Below are positions 1 through 64,000 of a stretch of DNA of 64,000 bases, piece after piece. The notes under the pieces are model-generated. The model was not told the origin of the DNA, ran no database searches, and saw only the letters and a list, made by a program, of their open reading frames with translations. This DNA comes from a virus: positions 1-64,000 of the IMG/VR virus record IMGVR_UViG_3300008116_000041; one strand, written 5' to 3'. Each line of letters opens with the position of its first letter. The stretch's first letter is position 1. The translations under genes and the position numbers were made by a program.

Positions 1-208
1 CACTTGTACCATCAGTACCGTTAGAACCAGAAGTACCTGATGTACCACTTGATCCGTCTGTTCCGCTAGTTCCTGAAGAACCATCCGTACCATTAGATCC
101 TGAAGTTCCACTTGATCCGTCTGTTCCGCTAGTTCCTGAAGAACCGTCTGTACCGTTTGATCCTGAAGTACCAGAAGAACCTGATGTACCACTTGTACCA
201 GTTGTAAC
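1..208 (-). repeat. Collagen-like coding repeat, distal block
   Basis: Degenerate 9-base units encode Gly-Thr-Ser, Gly-Ser-Ser, Gly-Ser-Asn and Gly-Thr-Asp triplets on the minus strand. Longer units recur almost exactly (compare about 50-90 with 110-150), which suggests recent expansion by recombination or slippage. The block continues past the window edge. Confidence 0.85.
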
Positions 209-1486
209 ACCCAAAGGTGTAACAGCATATGAATAGTGTACATCACCCTCTGAGTAGAAAGTCACTGAAGATGTTGCACCTCCGATGTTTTCTACCAATA
301 CTTTAACCAATATTCTATCGGATACATCCAAAGTTGAACCCGAATAGAATGTATCTGTTAATACCATTGTTGGAGATGTACTCTGAATAAGAGCAAAATC
401 GGTTGTGAATAATAGAGATTGAGTACCACCCGAGCTTATCTTATAAACTTGTGCAGCTGTTTGAACTGGTCCTACTGTTCTTGATAAGTGAAAGTAGAAT
501 GACCAAATTCCTGAAGGAATAACAGTAACAGCTGGATTACCAAGAGGTGAAATGTATTCACCGAATATTACTGTTTGACCTGTTAATATTGTATCTGTAT
601 ATGTTGATTGCGGTAAATTATCCGCATTTGTTCCCAATACTTTGAAAGAACCATCTGTTTCAGACTGATTGAAATAATAAATCAATCCTGATGCTCTACC
701 GTCCTGTCCTGAAGTTCCTGATGAACCACTGGTCCCTGAGCTTCCATCGGTACCACTTGTACCTGATGATCCATCTATACCACTTGTACCTGAGCTTCCA
801 TCAGTACCGCTTGTGCCAGACGATCCACTTGTTCCACCCGAAATTACGATTTCTGCTGCACCTGTACCCCCACTGATAACAGTACCACCTGAAATAGTAA
901 TACCTGTAACCGAAGTTACAGTTGTAACACCATCAGAAACAGATAAATTTCCACCAGATGAAGCTGTGTTAAAAATTCTCCATCTAGCATTACTTCTTGT
1001 AACACCACTAACACCTTCAATAGTAGACCCTGTCCATGCGTCGATAAAGTTCTGACCTGCAACAGTTGCATTGGTACAGATGAAGTTGTCACCTGAAGGT
1101 ACCAAAGCACCTGAAATTTCTGCTGCATCCCAAAGTGCAGGATAGTTGTCAATTTGAAGTTGATAGGTTGTGTCGGCTGATATCACATAAACCAACATAC
1201 CAATTCTACGTCTTCCTGTTGATATCTCATCACTATTGATGTATACCTGATCAGGAACCGCAAATGGTGTATTATAAGCAAACTCAATAGGAATAGTATT
1301 TGCCGAATTTGTGACTGATCCACCTGGTCCTATTGGATCATAAATTAAGTCTTGGTGCGAATAAACCTCCATGTATCCTCCAATGGATAATACAGAGAAG
1401 TTTGTACCTTGGGGGTTATCAAGTGCAACCGAATCGGGTCCGTTTAATAACGTTCCCGAGATTGGATTTTTGTACTGAAAGCTCAT
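1..1486 (-). CDS. Collagen-like tail fibre protein (C-terminus beyond window)
   Basis: The frame is open from an ATG at 1486 to the left edge, giving at least 495 residues, so the gene is truncated by the window. Residues about 1-215 form a globular head with no family I recognise. Two Gly-X-Y blocks made of GTS, GSS, GTD and GSN triplets lie at about residues 216-260 and from about 426 to the edge, separated by a beta-rich domain. Gly-X-Y runs in phage tail proteins usually form collagen-like trimeric shafts, so a fibre or adhesin role is inferred. It follows the PT-repeat gene by 15 bases and ends the baseplate/fibre block, where host-contact proteins are expected. No catalytic motif was seen. 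Confidence 0.75.
   Translation of the reverse strand, partial: MSFQYKNPISGTLLNGPDSVALDNPQGTNFSVLSIGGYMEVYSHQDLIYDPIGPGGSVTNSANTIPIEFAYNTPFAVPDQVYINSDEISTGRRRIGMLVYVISADTTYQLQIDNYPALWDAAEISGALVPSGDNFICTNATVAGQNFIDAWTGSTIEGVSGVTRSNARWRIFNTASSGGNLSVSDGVTTVTSVTGITISGGTVISGGTGAAEIVISGGTSGSSGTSGTDGSSGTSGIDGSSGTSGTDGSSGTSGSSGTSGQDGRASGLIYYFNQSETDGSFKVLGTNADNLPQSTYTDTILTGQTVIFGEYISPLGNPAVTVIPSGIWSFYFHLSRTVGPVQTAAQVYKISSGGTQSLLFTTDFALIQSTSPTMVLTDTFYSGSTLDVSDRILVKVLVENIGGATSSVTFYSEGDVHYSYAVTPLGVTTGTSGTSGSSGTSGSNGTDGSSGTSGTDGSSGTSGSNGTDGSSGTSGTDGSSGTSGTSGSNGTDGTS
705..838 (-). repeat. Collagen-like coding repeat, proximal block
   Basis: This is a shorter run of the same Gly-X-Y coding units as at 1-208, in the same reading frame. 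It encodes about residues 216-260 of the collagen-like fibre protein. Confidence 0.8.
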
Positions 1487-1501: not shown

Positions 1502-3112
1502 TTATATTAGGGTGTTACCTTTAAAGTAAATATCGGAAACTGATGCGTTTATTCTGAAGTCTGTGTTAGTATTTGATGTATACACTCTGTAAGTACCTGC
1601 CGGTATTGTACCACCAGTGTATTCAACAGTAATGTTATAGTATGCTGCGGTCATATTTCTTGCTGTAAGCGCGTTTGGATTACCCGCGATGTTTGTAGAA
1701 ATCTGACTAATCTTTTGTCCATTAGTTGCTCCTGTTGAAACGATCCAAGTATACCATGCATTTCCTGCTGTACCACCTGAAACTTTTGTTGTTTGGAATA
1801 GGTATGCGTTTATCGGATTACCGAAGGCATCGTTACCTCCCGAAGTCGTAGAAATAGGACCTGTCAAGATAGATGGTGCAGTTACACCCCATCCTGAGAA
1901 TGATAAATAAGCATTGAATTGATCATTGAATGTTATTGGGTTTGCTGTTGTCGGAGTATTAATCCAAAAACCTCTAAACGAAGATCCTTGCGATGACATC
2001 CATCCGTTGAATTGTGCAGTTGCCGCTTGTGGTTCAATCAATAAATAACCTTGTAATGGAGCTGGTGTTGGTGTTGGCGTTGGTGTTTCAGTTGGTGTTA
2101 TTGTTGCCGTTGGCGTTGGAGACTCAGTTGGGGTCATTGTTGGACTCGCTGTGGTTGTAACCGAAGGTGTTGGTGTTGTAGTTTCAGTTGGTGTTAGAGT
2201 TGGCGTTGCAGTTTCTGTTGGAGACGGAGTTTGCGTAACTGTTTCAGTTGGAGTTATAGTTGGTGTTGGAGTTGGGGTCATCGTCTCAGTCGCGGATGCG
2301 GTGATTGAAGGAGTTGGTGTTGGTGTTTCAGTAGATGTTGCCGTTATCGAAGGAGTAGGAGTATTTGTTGGTGTCTCAGTCGGAGTTGTTGTAGGTGTTT
2401 CTGTGTTAGTTGGTGTTACACTTGGTGTGTTTGTAGGCGTCTCAGATGGGGTTGTAGTCGGAGTTTCAGTAGGCGTCTCAGTTGGTGTTTGAGTTGCAGT
2501 TGCTGCTGGTGTTCCTGTTGGTGTTTGAGTTGGTGTTTCAGTAGGTGTTGGCGTTTGAGTTGGTGTCTCACTTGCAGTCTGGGTTGGTGTTTGAGTTGCA
2601 GTTGCTGCTGGTGTTCCTGTTGGCGTTTGAGTTGGTGTCTCACTTGGCGTTGCTGATAATGTAGTTGTTGGTGTCGGTGTAGTTGTTGGTGTTTGAGAGG
2701 TGGTAGGAGTTGGTGTTTGTGTAGGGGTTTCACTCGGAGTAGTCGTCGGAGTTGGCGTAGGTGTCGGAGTTTCTGTTGTACTTGCAGTAGGAGTCGGGCT
2801 AGTTCCAACAGTTGCTGTTGGTGATGGAGTAAGTGTTGGTGTTGGGCTGGCAGTTGGAGTTGGAGTGACACACTCGAAGGTGATTACCACACCATTGAAC
2901 ATGTCAGTTCTTGTTTGAGCAGAATAAGCTAAAGTCGCTCCTGTAAGACCTATTGGGAAAGTTGAATAATAAACATCAAATGGACCTAAAGCATTCGAAT
3001 TCGAAGCTAATCGCACTATGTAACTTGTACAGCCTGTTACTGTAAGTTGTTGTTCTATTGAGTTGTCACATCCTGGGGCATTATTAACAACGAATATCGA
3101 ATAAAGACTCAT
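1502..3112 (-). CDS. Proline-threonine repeat surface protein
   Basis: The 536-residue protein has three parts. An N-terminal domain (about 1-81) has cysteines at about 15, 28 and 81. A low-complexity region (about 82-352) is almost entirely Pro, Thr, Ser and Glu in TPTPT, ETPT and TPSPT units. A C-terminal globular domain (about 353-536) is rich in Gly, Asn and aromatic residues. PT-rich stalks are extended spacers in bacterial and viral surface proteins and are classic sites of O-glycosylation. Its place between the SprB-type and collagen-like genes suggests a tail-fibre or head-decoration adhesin. There is no signal peptide. A TATTTAT motif lies 14 bases before the ATG. The exact function is unknown. 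Confidence 0.65.
2053..2870 (-). repeat. Pro/Thr-coding low-complexity tandem repeat
   Basis: Degenerate 6- to 12-base units encode the TP, TPT and ETPT repeats. Some longer blocks recur nearly exactly (around 2490-2540 and 2590-2640), pointing to repeat expansion. The G/T bias on the plus strand creates spurious Val-Gly-rich open frames opposite it. Confidence 0.85.
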
Positions 3113-50852: not shown

Positions 50853-50854
50853 AT

Positions 50855-50886
50855 GTTGATAAATACATCGGAAAGAATTATATTTG
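50855..50886 (+). promoter_or_regulatory. Host-type promoter for SET-SNF2 operon
   Basis: GTTG (50855-50858, one mismatch to TTTG) is followed after exactly 20 bases by TATATTTG (50879-50886), matching the Bacteroidetes TAnnTTTG element. It lies 14 bases before the SET ATG at 50901 and encloses the divergent TATTTAT motif. Confidence 0.5.
50859..50865 (-). promoter_or_regulatory. TATTTAT motif, neck-type gene
   Basis: TATTTAT on the coding strand 6 bases before the ATG at 50852. It sits between the two elements of the divergent host-type promoter, so polymerases on the two strands should exclude each other. Confidence 0.5.
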
Positions 50887-50900
50887 TCTTAAAAATTGTT

Positions 50901-51299
50901 ATGAGAATAAACCCACCCACCAAAATATATTTGGATAAAAGTCCAATACACGGGATAGGTGTGTTCGCCAGCAATAAAATCAAAATATGGGAAGTGATCG
51001 AAATCTGTCCCATTGTTGACATCAACTTGAAAGACTCTGATCCATCACGTATTCTAATAGATTATAGATTTAACTGGCCTCAAGGTGGAAACCCTGAGAA
51101 ACAAGTAGTTTCTGGTGGTTATGGTATGTTTTATAATCATAGCGAAAAAGCAAGTGCCGCTTGGAGATCTAACAAAGAAAATAACACCTTTGAGTTCTAC
51201 GCATTGAGAGAGATCGAAAAAGGGGAAGAGATTTTGGTTTACTACGGGTCCGAAGAATATTGGGACATGATAAAAAGAGTTAAGGAAGAGAACCGATGA
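50901..51299 (+). CDS. SET-domain protein (putative lysine methyltransferase)
   Basis: A 132-residue SET-domain protein. It shows HGIGVFA (17-23, cofactor loop), YNHSEKASAAW (78-88, the N-H-S core motif) and GEEILVYYG (108-116, with the catalytic-site tyrosine region). SET enzymes transfer methyl groups from S-adenosylmethionine to protein lysines. The minimal size, without pre- or post-SET zinc modules, is usual for bacterial and viral forms. The start at 50901 is preferred over an in-frame ATG at 50853 that lies in the promoter. The stop overlaps the SNF2 start as ATGA, so the two are co-translated. The target may be a host or phage DNA-binding protein. Confidence 0.8.
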   Translation: MRINPPTKIYLDKSPIHGIGVFASNKIKIWEVIEICPIVDINLKDSDPSRILIDYRFNWPQGGNPEKQVVSGGYGMFYNHSEKASAAWRSNKENNTFEFYALREIEKGEEILVYYGSEEYWDMIKRVKEENR

Positions 51300-53086: not shown

Positions 53087-54619
53087 ATGAATAAACTAGA
53101 ACAGAAGATTGAACAACTTGAAAAACAAATTACAGAAACACACATTCAAGAAGAAACCAAGTTGTTAATCACAGAAATGAAAAAAATAGGAATAGAAAAA
53201 TTACCCTATTCTTACTCAGCCCTCAAAGGATTCATCGACGCAGAAACGATGAACTTCCACTACAACAAACATTACAAAGGCTATGTTGATAAACTAAACG
53301 ACGCACTTTCTAAGAAAAAATACGGCGATCTCGATTTGGAGAAGATAATAAAATCGATATCAAAGTATGACAAAACAATAAGAAACAACGCAGGTGGTGC
53401 ATTCAATCACGCATTGTTTTGGAATATGTTATCCCCAAAACCAATGAAACTAAAAGGGGAACTCGAAGAGAAAATCAAAAAACAATATAAAAATTTCAAC
53501 AACTTCAAAAAAGAGTTTGAAACAATAGCCAAAGAAAGATTCGGATCAGGTTGGGTTTGGTTGGTATTAACGAGTCAAAACAAGTTGAAGATAATGTCAA
53601 CTCCTAATCAGGACAACCCGCTGATGAATGTAATTGAAGGTGGGGGTTTTCCTTTATTGGGTCTTGATCTGTGGGAACACGCTTATTATTTGAAATACAG
53701 AAACAAAAGAGACGAGTACATTGCAAATTTTTGGAAAGTGGTAAATTGGGACTTTGTTTCAAAAATGTATGAGATGAAGACGGAAACAAAATTAGCTGAG
53801 TCTATAAAATTCAAACAGATTTTATCTGAAGGAAAATCAGAGAAGTGTTCTAGTGAGTTTGTTGAAGCTGTGAGAGTAATGTTTAATGTAAACAAAAAGA
53901 TAAAATACGAATACAGTGCTAATATCAACAACGTATTAAGAGAGGTATTCAGAGAAAATTGGGCCGAAAGGGACAATCAAGGAAACATGGCCGGTGTTTA
54001 TAATTTGGAATCACCAGGTAGATCTGTTGTAAATAAACTAAACACCAACTACAACGCTTTTTGTATATTGGTTAACGATATAAATAAGGTGATCAAATCT
54101 ATTGATCCGAAAAAGCCGTTGATAGATTTTGTTGGTAAGACGCCAGGCGAACAACTTGCAGAAATAACAAGATTCAACAAGGCAATAGACCATTTTAAAT
54201 TCAGAATATTTGACAAGGAAAGTTCTACATTCCAAAACTTAATGAGAACATTGATTGATACTGACTCAGCAGGAGAAAAAAGGGAAGAAATTACAGTTGC
54301 AATCATCAATAGATTTTTGGGAGCGGGATCCGCAGTTAAAACTGGTGGGTTGGGAGACGAAGAAGATATGACAAAGGGTATCGACGCAAAAATCACCGTA
54401 GACGGAAAAGAATACACCGCACAAATCAAGGGGTTCAAAGATAGAATAGAAAAAGGTGATAAGATAATTCTTACAGGTACAGGTAATGTCAAACAATATT
54501 CAACAGATTGGATGATTTTCCAAAAAGGAAAGAATGTTCTCATATTCAATAAAAAACCAAATATCATCGGTGGAAACTTCGTGTTTCCTAAAGACGCTTT
54601 GTTGTACGATATAAAATAA
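53087..54619 (+). CDS. Mn-type superoxide dismutase fused to nuclease-like domain
   Basis: A 510-residue fusion. Residues about 37-230 are a full Fe/Mn superoxide dismutase, which converts superoxide to peroxide and oxygen. Metal ligands are H58, H108 (in NNAGGAFNHALFWN), D194 and H198 (in DLWEHAYY). NNAGG and Q175 in STPNQD favour the Mn type. Residues 1-36 form an added helix. Residues about 240-510 are unrelated to SOD. Near the end, GIDAKITVDGKEYTAQIKGF (431-450) gives a D433...Q446-x-K448 pattern like PD-(D/E)XK nuclease folds. No stop or frame change separates the parts. TATTTAT precedes it. The nuclease label is inference. Confidence 0.8.
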   Translation: MNKLEQKIEQLEKQITETHIQEETKLLITEMKKIGIEKLPYSYSALKGFIDAETMNFHYNKHYKGYVDKLNDALSKKKYGDLDLEKIIKSISKYDKTIRNNAGGAFNHALFWNMLSPKPMKLKGELEEKIKKQYKNFNNFKKEFETIAKERFGSGWVWLVLTSQNKLKIMSTPNQDNPLMNVIEGGGFPLLGLDLWEHAYYLKYRNKRDEYIANFWKVVNWDFVSKMYEMKTETKLAESIKFKQILSEGKSEKCSSEFVEAVRVMFNVNKKIKYEYSANINNVLREVFRENWAERDNQGNMAGVYNLESPGRSVVNKLNTNYNAFCILVNDINKVIKSIDPKKPLIDFVGKTPGEQLAEITRFNKAIDHFKFRIFDKESSTFQNLMRTLIDTDSAGEKREEITVAIINRFLGAGSAVKTGGLGDEEDMTKGIDAKITVDGKEYTAQIKGFKDRIEKGDKIILTGTGNVKQYSTDWMIFQKGKNVLIFNKKPNIIGGNFVFPKDALLYDIK

Positions 54620-59352: not shown

Positions 59353-61035
59353 TTAGGATTCTTTACGTAGGCTTCTTTCGTAATGGTCAAATCTATTGTG
59401 TTCTGTAGGAGTCATAAGTAAAATACCTGCAAATATTCTATCCTTCTTCATTTCTTGATAGATGTATGACATCCATGTTTGTTCGAAAGGTCTAGCCCAT
59501 GTTGTTTCTAAGAACATTTTTTTATTACCTTCTTTTGAAACTATTTGTGGCCAATTACAGTAATATATTTCTCCTACACCATATGGGATACCCTGATATG
59601 ATTGAACTAAATGGAAAGCGGTCTTTGGTGCATTTGGATCTAATCCTAATTCAGGTAGCCTTTTGTTGTTTGGCCAATACTCATCTCTGACGGATTGAGG
59701 TACGTTATACCACGCCCATTGTGTTCCATTATCACCAAAAAATTCCGTATAGTTCAATTTCATGAAATCGAATTCTTCCCTGTGGATGATTTCCAAAGTT
59801 TTCAAATAGAAATTTTCAACATATCTGTTATATCCATTTCTACAAACACCAACCTCAGGGTAGAAGAACATATCATCTTCGAAGAAATGCATGTAATCTA
59901 AATCAGTCTTATCGAAATGTTCAGCAATGAATTGTCTACCACCACATATTCCTAAATTACCCCCTTCAGGGACAATATGTTCGAAATCATATTCTTTACA
60001 AAGTTGATCATATTCTTCAAATGTCGAGTGATCTGTAGAATTATTTAATAAGAATTTTTTAGGCATTTCTAAGAAATTCTTATCGTATGCATTCATTGAA
60101 TCAATTAACGTTTTGAATTGATTGGGACTATTGAAAGTTATAACATATAAGCCCACTTTTTTCGGATCCATAGGAGATTTTGATACACCATTAACTTTAT
60201 GTTCTGTCTTGGCTTCTAACCTGTCGTTTTTCAAATCTTCGAAGAACTTACCAACTAGACCATTTCCTTCAATTTCAAAGTAATTTACTAAATCGGCATT
60301 TTTGTAACACATGATACTGAAAATAGATTCTTCAGTACCCATATACCCATCCCTTAAAGTAGTGTTAAGAAGGTTATAATATATCCCATTGATTTCAGAT
60401 ATCGTGTCTTTAGGACCTCCGAAGAACCCACCTCTTGCAACTTTTTCCACTTTAGCACCAGCAATTTCATTCATCTTATTGAATTCGAAACCGTGGATTT
60501 CGTTATTTGCTTCGTAAGGAAAACATATGAATGAAAACTTAGAGATATATTTGGAAAGTTTATCCAAAACTTTATCGTGTGTAAAATACCCTGGATGTAC
60601 CGTATTGGTAATACCACCGTCAAGCCAAAACATATATTTTGAATCAAACCTATCCATTATTTTAGCATCGTGAAGAAGGAACATCTTCGACATAACTAAT
60701 GGATTGTATAACTCAAGTCTTGATTGAGTCGACTCAGGTAACCACCCTGCAAGGTTTTTCCATTCGGGATTGTTCCTTATTGTCTGTATGTTGTTGTAGA
60801 ATTCGTTGTTTCTGAACCATTCTACATCTCTCAAAATGAATTGTGTTTTATTTGGATCTCGTTTTTTAGAAACAATCTCTTGTAATTTACTGTCTCCGTA
60901 AATTATCATGTTTACATCAAAATCCAAAACTAAGTCGAATCTTTTCATGTAGTCAGAATATGAACGTGACCATCCTTCTGATAATCCGTCACGACCGATA
61001 TCCCATATCCCCGTTACAATTGTAATATCACTCAT
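59353..61035 (-). CDS. Two-domain glycosyltransferase
   Basis: A 560-residue protein with two sugar-transferase-like halves. The N-terminal half (1-290) has YMFWLDGGI near 133-141 and GGFFGGPKDT near 199, resembling the HtrL/YibB-type proteins and the neighbouring 294-residue gene. The C-terminal half (about 300-560) has GLYVITFNSPNQF, NNSTD, GGNLGICGGRQF and HFFEDDMFFY, a GT-A fold with an EDD metal site (GT2-like). Donor and acceptor are unknown. It is the last of four overlapping glycosyltransferase genes and starts 8 bases inside the previous one. Confidence 0.75.
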   Translation of the reverse strand: MSDITIVTGIWDIGRDGLSEGWSRSYSDYMKRFDLVLDFDVNMIIYGDSKLQEIVSKKRDPNKTQFILRDVEWFRNNEFYNNIQTIRNNPEWKNLAGWLPESTQSRLELYNPLVMSKMFLLHDAKIMDRFDSKYMFWLDGGITNTVHPGYFTHDKVLDKLSKYISKFSFICFPYEANNEIHGFEFNKMNEIAGAKVEKVARGGFFGGPKDTISEINGIYYNLLNTTLRDGYMGTEESIFSIMCYKNADLVNYFEIEGNGLVGKFFEDLKNDRLEAKTEHKVNGVSKSPMDPKKVGLYVITFNSPNQFKTLIDSMNAYDKNFLEMPKKFLLNNSTDHSTFEEYDQLCKEYDFEHIVPEGGNLGICGGRQFIAEHFDKTDLDYMHFFEDDMFFYPEVGVCRNGYNRYVENFYLKTLEIIHREEFDFMKLNYTEFFGDNGTQWAWYNVPQSVRDEYWPNNKRLPELGLDPNAPKTAFHLVQSYQGIPYGVGEIYYCNWPQIVSKEGNKKMFLETTWARPFEQTWMSYIYQEMKKDRIFAGILLMTPTEHNRFDHYERSLRKES

Positions 61036-61912
61036 CTATTTTATTTATTTCTGTTAATATTTTATAGAAACTTTTATTTCTGTCGAAAAGCGTTGGGTCC
61101 GTGCCAGGAGGACAATTATCTCTACACCACCATATGTCGAAGTGTTTTCTCTCAAATCTTTCTCTATGATTCACATACATTAGGGTCATAATTTGTTCTT
61201 CCATAGGTAACCCTTCTTGAGGATCCTCCAACACTTTTTGAAGATAATCTTCGAATGTTGTTACCAACCAATTCCAATTTTCTTTTTTACCACCAAATAA
61301 CCCACCAATGATATGGATAGATCTATCATATTCTGTATAATATTTTCTATCGACAGTTCCTGACCAATAATTTCTATCATTCTCTTTTCCTATTAAGAAA
61401 ATTTTATCGCCAGTGAATTCATTCAAACCTGATAAGAAATCATTCTGAAATAAGTTTGATTCATAGTAACGTCTTTGAAGTCCCTCATCAGTAAGGTATT
61501 TCAAAGGTATAAGTCCACAGTGGGAAAGTCCTGCATCAATCCAATAATAATAATCATAGGAACCATCTTCATTCCACCACCAGTGAAACTTAGAATATTG
61601 TACCTCGACACATCTATCAGAACTTTTAACTTGATCCAAGTTCTTTTTACTATTGATTAAATCCTTGAATTTAGTGTCATAAAGACTGAACGTCTTGAAC
61701 TGTAATTGTTTAGGATCTATATTGTGTAGTTCGTAAAAGAATACTTCTAATTCTTGCTTTTCTTCTTCTGTGGTATAACAAACGAAATCTGCATTTGTCA
61801 TTTTTAGAAGTGACAGTAAACTGTATCTGTAGTGGCCGCCTCTCGCAGGTCTACCACCTAAATCTGTTCCGTTCAACCTTCCGTATATTGCGGTTATGAA
61901 TTTAACTGACAT
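61028..61912 (-). CDS. Glycosyltransferase, HtrL/YibB-like
   Basis: A 294-residue protein with FITAIYGRLNG at the start, YYYWIDAGLSHCG near 121-133 and HIIGGLFGGKKENW near 199-212. The W-I-D-A-G metal-site segment and the GG-x-F-G-G loop fit HtrL/YibB-type glycosyltransferases and match the N-terminal half of the next gene, suggesting a shared origin by duplication. It overlaps both neighbours by 8-11 bases, so the cluster is translated as one unit. Confidence 0.65.
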   Translation of the reverse strand: MSVKFITAIYGRLNGTDLGGRPARGGHYRYSLLSLLKMTNADFVCYTTEEEKQELEVFFYELHNIDPKQLQFKTFSLYDTKFKDLINSKKNLDQVKSSDRCVEVQYSKFHWWWNEDGSYDYYYWIDAGLSHCGLIPLKYLTDEGLQRRYYESNLFQNDFLSGLNEFTGDKIFLIGKENDRNYWSGTVDRKYYTEYDRSIHIIGGLFGGKKENWNWLVTTFEDYLQKVLEDPQEGLPMEEQIMTLMYVNHRERFERKHFDIWWCRDNCPPGTDPTLFDRNKSFYKILTEINKIDE

Positions 61913-62645
61913 TGAAATCTATATGTTTTTTTTCTTTTTTTATCTCTTCCATTTTGTCTTGATGAACATAGAAACTTTCTATTTTCACGGGAGAGTATTG
62001 GTTCCAATTGTAAACCTGTGTATAATAATTATTGTACATCCCATGTGACACATCAGAATAAGATCTTCTCTGAGGTGCAATCGGTAATATTGGACAATAA
62101 CTTTGTTTCTTAGGATAAATAAAATTCGCCAAGTATCCGTCAATCGGAAAGTAGTAATCTCCTGATGTGAAAGCTGTTAGTGATATATCGAAAATCTCAT
62201 CATAAACGGATTCATCGTATATCATCATATTTGTCGCAAATGTCTCCGCGTTATCATTGTTGTTTCTTGGTGGAAGATTAGTTATATCCAAAAGAAGATT
62301 ATATTTTTCACTTCTGTTAACAGGTCTATTCAAAGAGGGAGTTACGTTAAAAACTGAAAACTCTATGTCCTCTATTTGATTCTCTAATTGATCTATGAAT
62401 GACTTCGAATAAGGCATGAAAATACAATCATCTTCGATTACCATTACCCTCTTATATCCTCTTTCTTTTGCAATCTTAATCACCTCGAGATGTGATAAAG
62501 TACACCCCATATAACTGTTAGTGTTGATTGCACTAAATCTCTCAAAAGACCAGCCAATATAATTCATTTCCTCAGTGATTAGAGATAAATTCTCCACCCT
62601 GTGATCAAGATTGATAACAAACTTAGGAAGGTCTAAAAATTTCAT
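61902..62645 (-). CDS. Glycosyltransferase family 25
   Basis: The protein has 247 residues from the ATG at 62645, which shares a base with the preceding stop (TAATG); an upstream in-frame start adds 16 residues but lies inside the previous gene. FVINLDHRVENLSLI at the N-terminus, RFSAIN, GCTLSHLEVIKIAKERGYKR and VMVIEDDCIF are the hallmark order of GT25 (LPS galactosyltransferase-like and collagen glucosyl/galactosyltransferase-like) enzymes. GT25 relatives glycosylate lipooligosaccharide and, in eukaryotes and giant viruses, collagen hydroxylysine. The window also encodes a collagen-like fibre, so that link is worth noting but unproven. Confidence 0.85.
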   Translation of the reverse strand: MKFLDLPKFVINLDHRVENLSLITEEMNYIGWSFERFSAINTNSYMGCTLSHLEVIKIAKERGYKRVMVIEDDCIFMPYSKSFIDQLENQIEDIEFSVFNVTPSLNRPVNRSEKYNLLLDITNLPPRNNNDNAETFATNMMIYDESVYDEIFDISLTAFTSGDYYFPIDGYLANFIYPKKQSYCPILPIAPQRRSYSDVSHGMYNNYYTQVYNWNQYSPVKIESFYVHQDKMEEIKKEKKHIDFNVS

Positions 62646-63910
62646 TAACTTACGTGATTGTGTGTTAATTGACCTGTTAATCTTTCGCACCAACCCTTTG
62701 ATTCAGAGTGTGGCCAAACAACCCAATATGCTGGCATAACATCTGTTTGGAACTCTCTCCAAATTTTACAATATTTGTCAGGGTCTCTGAAATACCCTTG
62801 AATTTCGTTTTTATCAGAATCTCTTCTGAAAAGCGTTTCGTCATTAGGACCATGGAATGCAACCACCCAAAAGTCATAATCCTTTTCAGGTACCTTATCA
62901 TATCCAACATCAATACAATGTTTGTATACTTTAGCAAAATCATTTTTCCAATCTTCCTCTGTAGCATAATTGTAAGGGTTTGGAGGATAATTTTTATCTA
63001 ATGTGTATTTTTGAATTGCTCTTTTTTCGAACAATATACCCGCATATTTCTCATATTCTCTCAAAGGTCTAACAGGACCAAAACCGTATGGACCATCATG
63101 ACCTTCTTGTACTTCACCATCCATACCAAATAGTTTTCTATTGGTTAAGTGACTTTTCTGATTTCTTTTTACCCATTCTTTATCGTCATCCCACTGTTTT
63201 GTTCTTCCTTTACGAGTATATTCATGGTAAACAACAGGAATGTGAGGGTGGAATAAATCATAACCCCAAGTATACGCTCTCGCAGCAATTGAGATTTCTT
63301 CCCCGTGGAAATAATATTCAGGATTGTGTTGAACCTCTACAGAGAACTCACCTAACGTAAAACAGAAATGGGCAGAATAGAATCTTGCAGTAACAGGTTT
63401 TTTCATTTCTCTCCAACCTGGGATTGTTTCAGGTAGGAAGAAAACAGCACCTTCAGGAATGAATCTATCGAAAACCATTCTCCAAGCATCAGTGGCTCTT
63501 CCTGCAGGGTCGTTGTCAGGATCAAAGGAGGGTACATAACCCGTAAGTAGAGGTTTCTTATACCCATCCTTTTGTAGACCCTTTATCATTTTGATTAAGA
63601 TATCATCCCAATCTTTCACGAATCTCATATGTGAATCTATCTGTAAAGTATAAGTTTCACCATCATATAATTGTTGTACTAAATGTCTTGCCCAACAAAC
63701 ACCTTGAGCTTCTTGATAAGGTATATCTAAGATTTTAAATCTTTTGTCGGATCTGAACTCATCTAAGTTATCAAAACCATCGGATTCACTGAATTGTCTG
63801 GATATTCCTAATACTAAGTTTTTTGGTCTTTTTGCGTTTGCCAACATGTCTTTAATTGTTGGAACTAATTGAGGGTCTCTGTAAGAGGCGATTTGTACAA
63901 AAATTTTCAT
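62645..63910 (-). CDS. GlcNAc-type glycosyltransferase
   Basis: A 421-residue protein. It starts KIFVQIASYRDPQLVPTIKD and continues with GVCWARHLVQQLYDGE, TLQIDSHMRF (D-x-H metal site), GYVPSF and YFHGEEISIAARAYTWGYD. This is the pattern of the GlcNAc glycosyltransferase family (PF11397 type), related to the eukaryotic Skp1 prolyl-hydroxyl GlcNAc transferase and found in bacteria and large viruses. It is the first gene of the glycosyltransferase cluster. A terminator lies 28 bases upstream and no TATTTAT motif is present, so its promoter is unclear. Confidence 0.8.
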   Translation of the reverse strand: MKIFVQIASYRDPQLVPTIKDMLANAKRPKNLVLGISRQFSESDGFDNLDEFRSDKRFKILDIPYQEAQGVCWARHLVQQLYDGETYTLQIDSHMRFVKDWDDILIKMIKGLQKDGYKKPLLTGYVPSFDPDNDPAGRATDAWRMVFDRFIPEGAVFFLPETIPGWREMKKPVTARFYSAHFCFTLGEFSVEVQHNPEYYFHGEEISIAARAYTWGYDLFHPHIPVVYHEYTRKGRTKQWDDDKEWVKRNQKSHLTNRKLFGMDGEVQEGHDGPYGFGPVRPLREYEKYAGILFEKRAIQKYTLDKNYPPNPYNYATEEDWKNDFAKVYKHCIDVGYDKVPEKDYDFWVVAFHGPNDETLFRRDSDKNEIQGYFRDPDKYCKIWREFQTDVMPAYWVVWPHSESKGWCERLTGQLTHNHVS

Positions 63911-63938
63911 TAAAATATATTTTGTATAAAAAATAAAA

Positions 63939-63962
63939 AACCCTCCAAATAAGTGGAGGGTT
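63939..63962 (-). terminator. Intrinsic terminator upstream of glycosyltransferase cluster
   Basis: An 8-bp stem AACCCTCC/GGAGGGTT with an 8-base loop is followed on the minus strand by TTTTTTATTTTTT. It ends the transcript of a minus-strand gene lying beyond the right edge. The remaining bases to 64000 may hold that gene's last codons, which I cannot assign. Confidence 0.85.
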
Positions 63963-64000
63963 GTTTTGAAATATTACTAATATCTTATACTTGAGTGACA

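Follow-up and report, generated by a model that had tools for sequence, protein, structure and literature searches.

A glycosyltransferase cassette of large phages that accompanies mucin-like genes is a likely locus for O glycosylation of virion proteins

We analyzed positions 1 to 64,000 (the window) of a 64,827-base virus record from IMG/VR (IMGVR_UViG_3300008116_000041) and asked what is made by four overlapping minus-strand open reading frames (ORFs) at positions 59353 to 63910, designated P0004, P0003, P0002, and P0001. The phage is a giant freshwater one and belongs to a T4-like lineage whose largest relatives found measure 317 to 326 kb. We consider it likely that the four genes form a phage-encoded locus for mucin-type O glycosylation of virion proteins. 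Families, predicted fold, gene linkage, and cassette exchange were computed here; from the genes we infer the acceptor, the sugar, the order of steps, and the purpose. An initial annotation had described a four-gene cluster of GlcNAc-type, GT25, HtrL-like, and two-domain transferases, which profile matches, hhalign comparisons, and structure models confirmed, and had placed collagen-like and proline/threonine (PT)-rich fiber proteins in the same window, where we found both (Table 1).

P0004, a GT60-type transferase, matched the PF11397 "GlcNAc" profile at 225 bits (cutoff, 21) and phrog_24687 at 538 bits. Its AlphaFold2 model, built from an alignment of 24 sequences (all model alignments used window and IMG/VR sequences only), had a pLDDT of 86.8 and a pTM of 0.80. 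The first 17 PDB matches of this model in Foldseek were polypeptide GalNAc-transferases, which initiate the synthesis of mucin O-glycans. In VIA comparisons, the best match within this class had a Z score of 21.2 (269 residues aligned, 3.4 Å) for residues 1 to 326; the aligned part lies mostly within residues 1 to 331 and barely reaches the C-terminal region from about 330 to 421. The Z scores were 18 to 21 for the GalNAc-transferases versus at most 16.4 for other GT-A enzymes. The animal enzymes (GT27) are thus the closest solved fold (Z, 21), but their identity to P0004 is about 12%, and neither the P0004 and P0001 sequences nor a P0004 profile matched any PDB sequence. The residues D92-S93-H94, invariant in 24 homologues of P0004, form a putative metal motif of the D-x-H/D type; the D-x-H type is known from GT27. 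GT60 enzymes of Trypanosoma cruzi put alpha-GlcNAc on mucin Thr, and the peptide KPPTTTTTTTTKPP is accepted by the T. cruzi activity (PMC3769586, PMC9472816). Fold and family evidence together point to a putative polypeptide substrate for P0004.

The GT60 gene keeps company with genes for PT-rich or collagen-like proteins, which make up 2.5 to 4% of all ORFs (G001, G002, and XacN1). The ORF immediately upstream of GT60 was of this kind in 47 of 64 nonredundant loci; because most loci come from one lineage, a point that counts against our interpretation, these are not 64 independent events, and a binomial calculation on them exaggerates the significance. Divergent GT60 genes (37 to 42% identity to P0004) adjoin PT-rich or GTSG genes at loci L581 and L585, and at L586 the GT60 gene is followed directly by a PT-rich fusion of P0005, with no P0001 to P0003 adjoining.

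The association also held across genomes. Exact TPTPTP coding sites numbered 19, 5, 36, 17, 6, and 15 in genomes G001 to G006, respectively, 29 in phage XacN1, and 19 in phage RAS14, and PF11397 matched in all 8 of these phages with 5 to 36 sites. No PF11397 match was obtained in 11 large phages with no site (RaK2, GAP32, Mel-JY01, Atu_ph07, T4, D491s, ACG-2014f, CcrColossus, and SCTP-2) or one site (Pori-4 and P-SSM2). RaK2 serves as a near control, since most structural genes of XacN1 are closest to those of RaK2-like phages, according to the XacN1 report (PMC5852040). Furthermore, among IMG/VR contigs of >38 kb chosen solely for a (TP)5 run (three similar-sized contigs were left out), GT60 was present in 9 of 32, versus 0 of 48 contigs selected for (AP)5 or (EP)4 (Fisher test, P value = 1 × 10−4). 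The loci L580, L581, L583, L585, and L586 belong to these GT60-bearing contigs.

The candidate acceptors have a mucin-like composition. The PT-rich protein of the window contains a 269-residue tract with 122 Thr and 64 Pro residues and no Lys or Arg, and all four Thr codons are used in it, so that at the DNA level it is no simple repeat. Across 209 proteins, PT tracts were 41% Thr and 23% Pro; Pro/Thr/Ser-rich tracts are encoded in the same genome as GT60, as in a mucin-type system. The collagen-like protein, which matches PHROG tail-fiber families, has 38 GXY triplets in which X is mostly Thr or Ser and from which Lys and Pro are absent. Relatives gave a similar picture over 1,797 GXY triplets, in which X was Thr in 55% and Ser in 31% and Y was Ser in 79%. 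Some neighboring proteins carry Laminin_G_3 (lectin-like) or phrog_8510 (virion-protein) domains. Proteins of 3,100 to 3,300 amino acids (aa) with PT-rich tails are encoded near the cluster at L003:8371-18312 and L004:37163-46579. XacN1 encodes about 16 PT-rich proteins, ORF232 to ORF237 and ORF325 among them, yet its paper reports no tail fibers.

The three genes that follow P0004 also encode transferases. P0003 matched the GT25 profile PF01755 at 41.1 bits (cutoff, 24); its most likely start codon is the ATG at 62645, which overlaps the P0004 stop codon (TAATG), rather than the TTG at 62693, since its relatives measure 243 to 249 aa. P0002 had no significant match in Pfam; the HtrL-like label holds because hhalign matched its family to the HtrL domain in P0001 at a probability of 92.6 and the family retains the motif W-[IL]-D-[AG]-G, and homologues are present in XacN1 and RAS14. 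P0001 combines an N-terminal HtrL_YibB domain (PF09612, 50 bits; cutoff, 24.1) with a GT-A-like second domain in which EDDM is invariant. Its AlphaFold2 model (pLDDT, 83.2; pTM, 0.65) contains two GT-A domains, the first (residues 1 to 268) near GT6 enzymes (Z about 13; Z of 12 to 15 over both domains) and the second (residues 284 to 555) near B4GALNT1, POMGNT1, and GnT-I (Z of 14 to 15). With the whole P0001 protein, Foldseek also matched LH3 and LARGE1; we did not take these matches as evidence for a collagen role, because they involve tandem GT-A domains and a large root mean square deviation.

P0001 and P0004 each matched more than 560 IMG/VR stretches, recurring together in many contigs, and both occur in the isolates XacN1 (where ORF334 is the P0004 homologue), CM1, and RAS14 at 40 to 46% identity. 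The interval from GT60 to P0001 showed 23 gene arrangements among 78 distinct loci; the P0003-P0002 arrangement of the window was found in 51 of them, and P0001 was conserved at the 3′ end of the cassette. Incoming genes encode GT10 and GT11 fucosyltransferases, a GT7C-type transferase, a sugar nucleotidyltransferase, FkbM and rhamnosyl-type O-methyltransferases, and, in XacN1 and RAS14, a carbamoyltransferase. The order in these two phages is GT60, carbamoyltransferase, HtrL-like gene, an extra gene (XacN1 only), and two-domain enzyme. Their carbamoyltransferase is of the NodU/TobZ type (L003:24792-27089 and L004:28003-30303) and suggests a carbamoylated glycan. Constancy of the first enzyme and exchange of the later ones fit a conserved peptide linkage and a variable outer glycan, if the enzymes act in the presumed order.

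In the mechanism that we favor, P0004 would transfer the first sugar from a UDP-sugar to Thr in the PT-rich tracts and the Thr/Ser-rich GSSGTSG repeats of fibers or other surface proteins of the phage. This sugar may be alpha-linked GlcNAc, a choice that we make tentatively, giving GlcNAc slightly less than an even chance. P0003, P0002, and both domains of P0001 would then add further sugars stepwise, and the swapping of the middle enzymes in relatives would leave the core linkage constant while the outer glycan varied between close relatives. The glycans might hold the long PT linkers extended and protease resistant, and they might alter the virion surface that faces hosts or grazers. Candidate extension enzymes stand in the cassette beside the putative initiating enzyme, and no oligosaccharyltransferase or flippase was found among the scanned families in a search limited to the cassette. 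At least two glycoproteins were detected in virions of XacN1, which carries a syntenic cluster (PMC5852040). The earlier proposal that the phage decorates its own fibers thus gains support from these virion glycoproteins and from the linkage of GT60 to PT-rich and collagen-like genes.

Several observations weigh against this interpretation, in addition to the predominance of one lineage. At the divergent loci L580 and L583, no PT-rich gene lies near GT60. The XacN1 glycoproteins are reported without protein names in the accessible portion of that paper (PMC5852040), and for the window phage itself, glycosylation is a prediction from its genes. Moreover, a strong terminator separates the fiber gene from P0004, and the heptamer TATTTAT is mostly absent before the transferases, so that shared late expression finds no support. 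The terminator hairpin (e.g., AACCCTCTACTTTCGTGGAGGGTTTTTTATTTTT) is kept in nearly all relatives and is possibly a regulatory or recombination boundary between the fiber module and the GT60 gene. TATTTAT lies upstream of P0005 in 76 of 77 loci and of PT-rich or collagen-like genes in 89 of 140, but upstream of P0004 in 5 of 84 and of P0001 to P0003 in none. It may be a promoter element of the phage lineage. In the window, it stands on the coding strand 11 to 40 bases before many structural and some replication genes (21 on the minus strand, 7 on the plus strand), including those starting at 3112, 18433, 42966, 48592, and 59335. The T4-type late promoter TATAAATA occurred 10 times in the window versus 6 expected by shuffling, which is not decisive.

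We evaluated three other substrates for the cassette. The enzymes could modify lipopolysaccharide (LPS) or another surface glycan of the host during infection and so block superinfection, which had been named earlier as the main alternative. GT25 and HtrL/YibB take their names from LPS loci, a host-like GT9 gene lies near the XacN1 cluster, and TATTTAT, which precedes many structural genes, is missing ahead of the transferase genes, so that early expression might occur. Beyond the family names, however, we found no positive evidence for this alternative, and it leaves unexplained both the tracking of PT-rich proteins by GT60 across genomes and the fold match of P0004 to polypeptide transferases. 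No Gtr-type membrane partner was found among the four genes in a search by family (membrane segments were not predicted). We regard LPS modification as unlikely.

The initial annotation had also reasoned that GT25 and Skp1-type enzymes modify hydroxylated residues, in which case a phage or host hydroxylase would first act on Pro or Lys of the acceptors. The Dictyostelium Skp1 GlcNAc-transferase does act on hydroxyproline, and the PT tracts are rich in Pro. The hydroxylase search suggested at that time gave a divided result: two to three PF13640 oxygenases are encoded in each of the complete freshwater relatives G001 to G003, but no PF13640 match was found in XacN1 or RAS14, which have the cluster and the PT tracts (this one hydroxylase family was searched). 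The GXY repeats, moreover, are nearly devoid of Lys, and Pro is rare, with 2 Lys and 28 Pro at the 3,594 X and Y positions of the relatives; Lys at Y, the acceptor of COLGALT (GT25), characterizes neither these repeats nor those of the window. The (AP)5 and (EP)4 contigs, also Pro rich, lack GT60. The scarcity of Lys and Pro in the GXY repeats and the lack of PF13640 matches in XacN1 and RAS14 led us to reject hydroxylation-dependent glycosylation as the principal explanation, and we judge it improbable. With Thr as the natural acceptor, no hydroxylase is needed.

Glycosylation of modified bases in the phage's own DNA is very improbable: the second domain of P0001 weakly matched phrog_842, a beta-glucosyl-HMC-alpha-glucosyltransferase (E value = 0.0015), but P0004 resembles polypeptide transferases most closely in fold, and each relative searched has at most one PF00303 gene, the copies in G001 and XacN1 keeping the PFN motif of thymidylate synthase, so that this search, which did not extend to TET/JBP enzymes, revealed no dCMP hydroxymethylase.

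Table 1. Features of the O-glycosylation cassette and its surroundings
Feature	Position	Strand	Size	Description
P0004	62645..63910	-	421 aa	GT60-type (PF11397) transferase; proposed polypeptide Thr O-glycosyltransferase that would start the glycan
P0003	61902..62645	-	247 aa, ATG start	GT25-family transferase; proposed extension enzyme, replaceable in relatives
P0002	61028..61912	-		HtrL/YibB-like transferase; proposed extension enzyme
P0001	59353..61035	-	560 aa	Tandem GT-A-type domains (HtrL_YibB and a second); last gene of the cassette
P0005	58955..59335	-		Small conserved protein 3′ of the cassette
PT-rich (mucin-like) protein	1502..3112	-		Candidate acceptor
GSSGTSG collagen-like tail protein	2..1486	-		Candidate acceptor; truncated by the contig end
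Intergenic region	63911..63984	-		Conserved intrinsic terminator (AACCCTCCACTTATTTGGAGGGTT TTTT) between the upstream fiber gene and P0004
Second GSSGTSG fiber gene	63985-64821	-		Same contig, just past the window edge; ends 75 bases before P0004

Both contig ends fall within or adjoin the PT-rich and GSSGTSG repeat genes, which are probably assembly break points. Downstream of the cassette come P0005 and then a DNA polymerase gene. A P0005 homologue was present in 150 of 161 loci. The protein is short in the window; elsewhere it is fused to PT-rich tracts (L582:14073-15290, 405 aa; L586:1587-2816, 410 aa; L587:14925-15869, 314 aa), and it is perhaps a virion anchoring domain. Two further window genes drew attention: the protein encoded at positions 53087 to 54619 continues for about 280 uncharacterized residues beyond its Fe/Mn superoxide dismutase domains (137 and 81 bits in Pfam), and positions 50853 to 51299 encode a SET-domain protein (PF00856, 53 bits), here in a phage.

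The nearest known system is the mucin-type alpha-GlcNAc-Thr glycosylation of T. cruzi and Dictyostelium (CAZy GT60: TcOGNT and DdGnt2), which likewise joins a PF11397-type enzyme to Thr/Pro-rich acceptors and stepwise extension; the window system, in contrast, is found in a phage, with no Golgi, with candidate acceptor genes clustered, and with exchangeable extension genes. Among phages, XacN1 (a Xanthomonas phage), RAS14, and CM1 (both Stenotrophomonas phages) share with the window the syntenic GT60, HtrL-like, and two-domain transferases and the PT-rich proteins, but XacN1 and RAS14 have a carbamoyltransferase in the cassette and no P0003-like GT25. The XacN1 authors draw no connection between these enzymes and PT-rich acceptors (PMC5852040). 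Glycosylation of phage virions is already known as a kind. Mycobacteriophages carry glycans on structural proteins of the particle (Freeman et al. 2023, as cited in PMC12619734), although at the C termini of capsid and tail-tube subunits, and the available text of the citing paper does not mention a GT60/mucin-like pairing (PMC12619734). Moraphages, aquatic jumbo phages whose genomes reach 307 kb and whose shared genes include four putative glycosyltransferase groups, resemble the window phage in habitat, size class, PolB, and several conserved transferases and are perhaps of the same or a neighboring lineage; roles in DNA, serotype, and the virion are discussed by the authors, who name no acceptor (PMC12619734). 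In the literature searched, which covers few subscription journals, we found nothing relevant on PF11397 in bacteriophages or on mucin-like phage fibers, nor a GT60 polypeptide transferase that is paired with mucin-like virion proteins and accompanied by a swappable cassette.

On balance, we lean toward the view that jumbo phages possess a self-contained mucin system, a viral counterpart of eukaryotic mucin O glycosylation, in which mucin-like virion proteins are served by a dedicated polypeptide O-glycosyltransferase and by an exchangeable cassette for glycan variation. Phage virion glycosylation has rarely been shown, its acceptor sites and enzymes being mostly unknown, and a concrete enzyme-acceptor pair predicts which proteins and residues bear sugar, including in the existing isolates XacN1, RAS14, and CM1. 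If true, the pairing could explain the PT-rich tracts of these large phages, and a glycan cassette that can be exchanged next to host-contact proteins would give phages a new route of surface variation.

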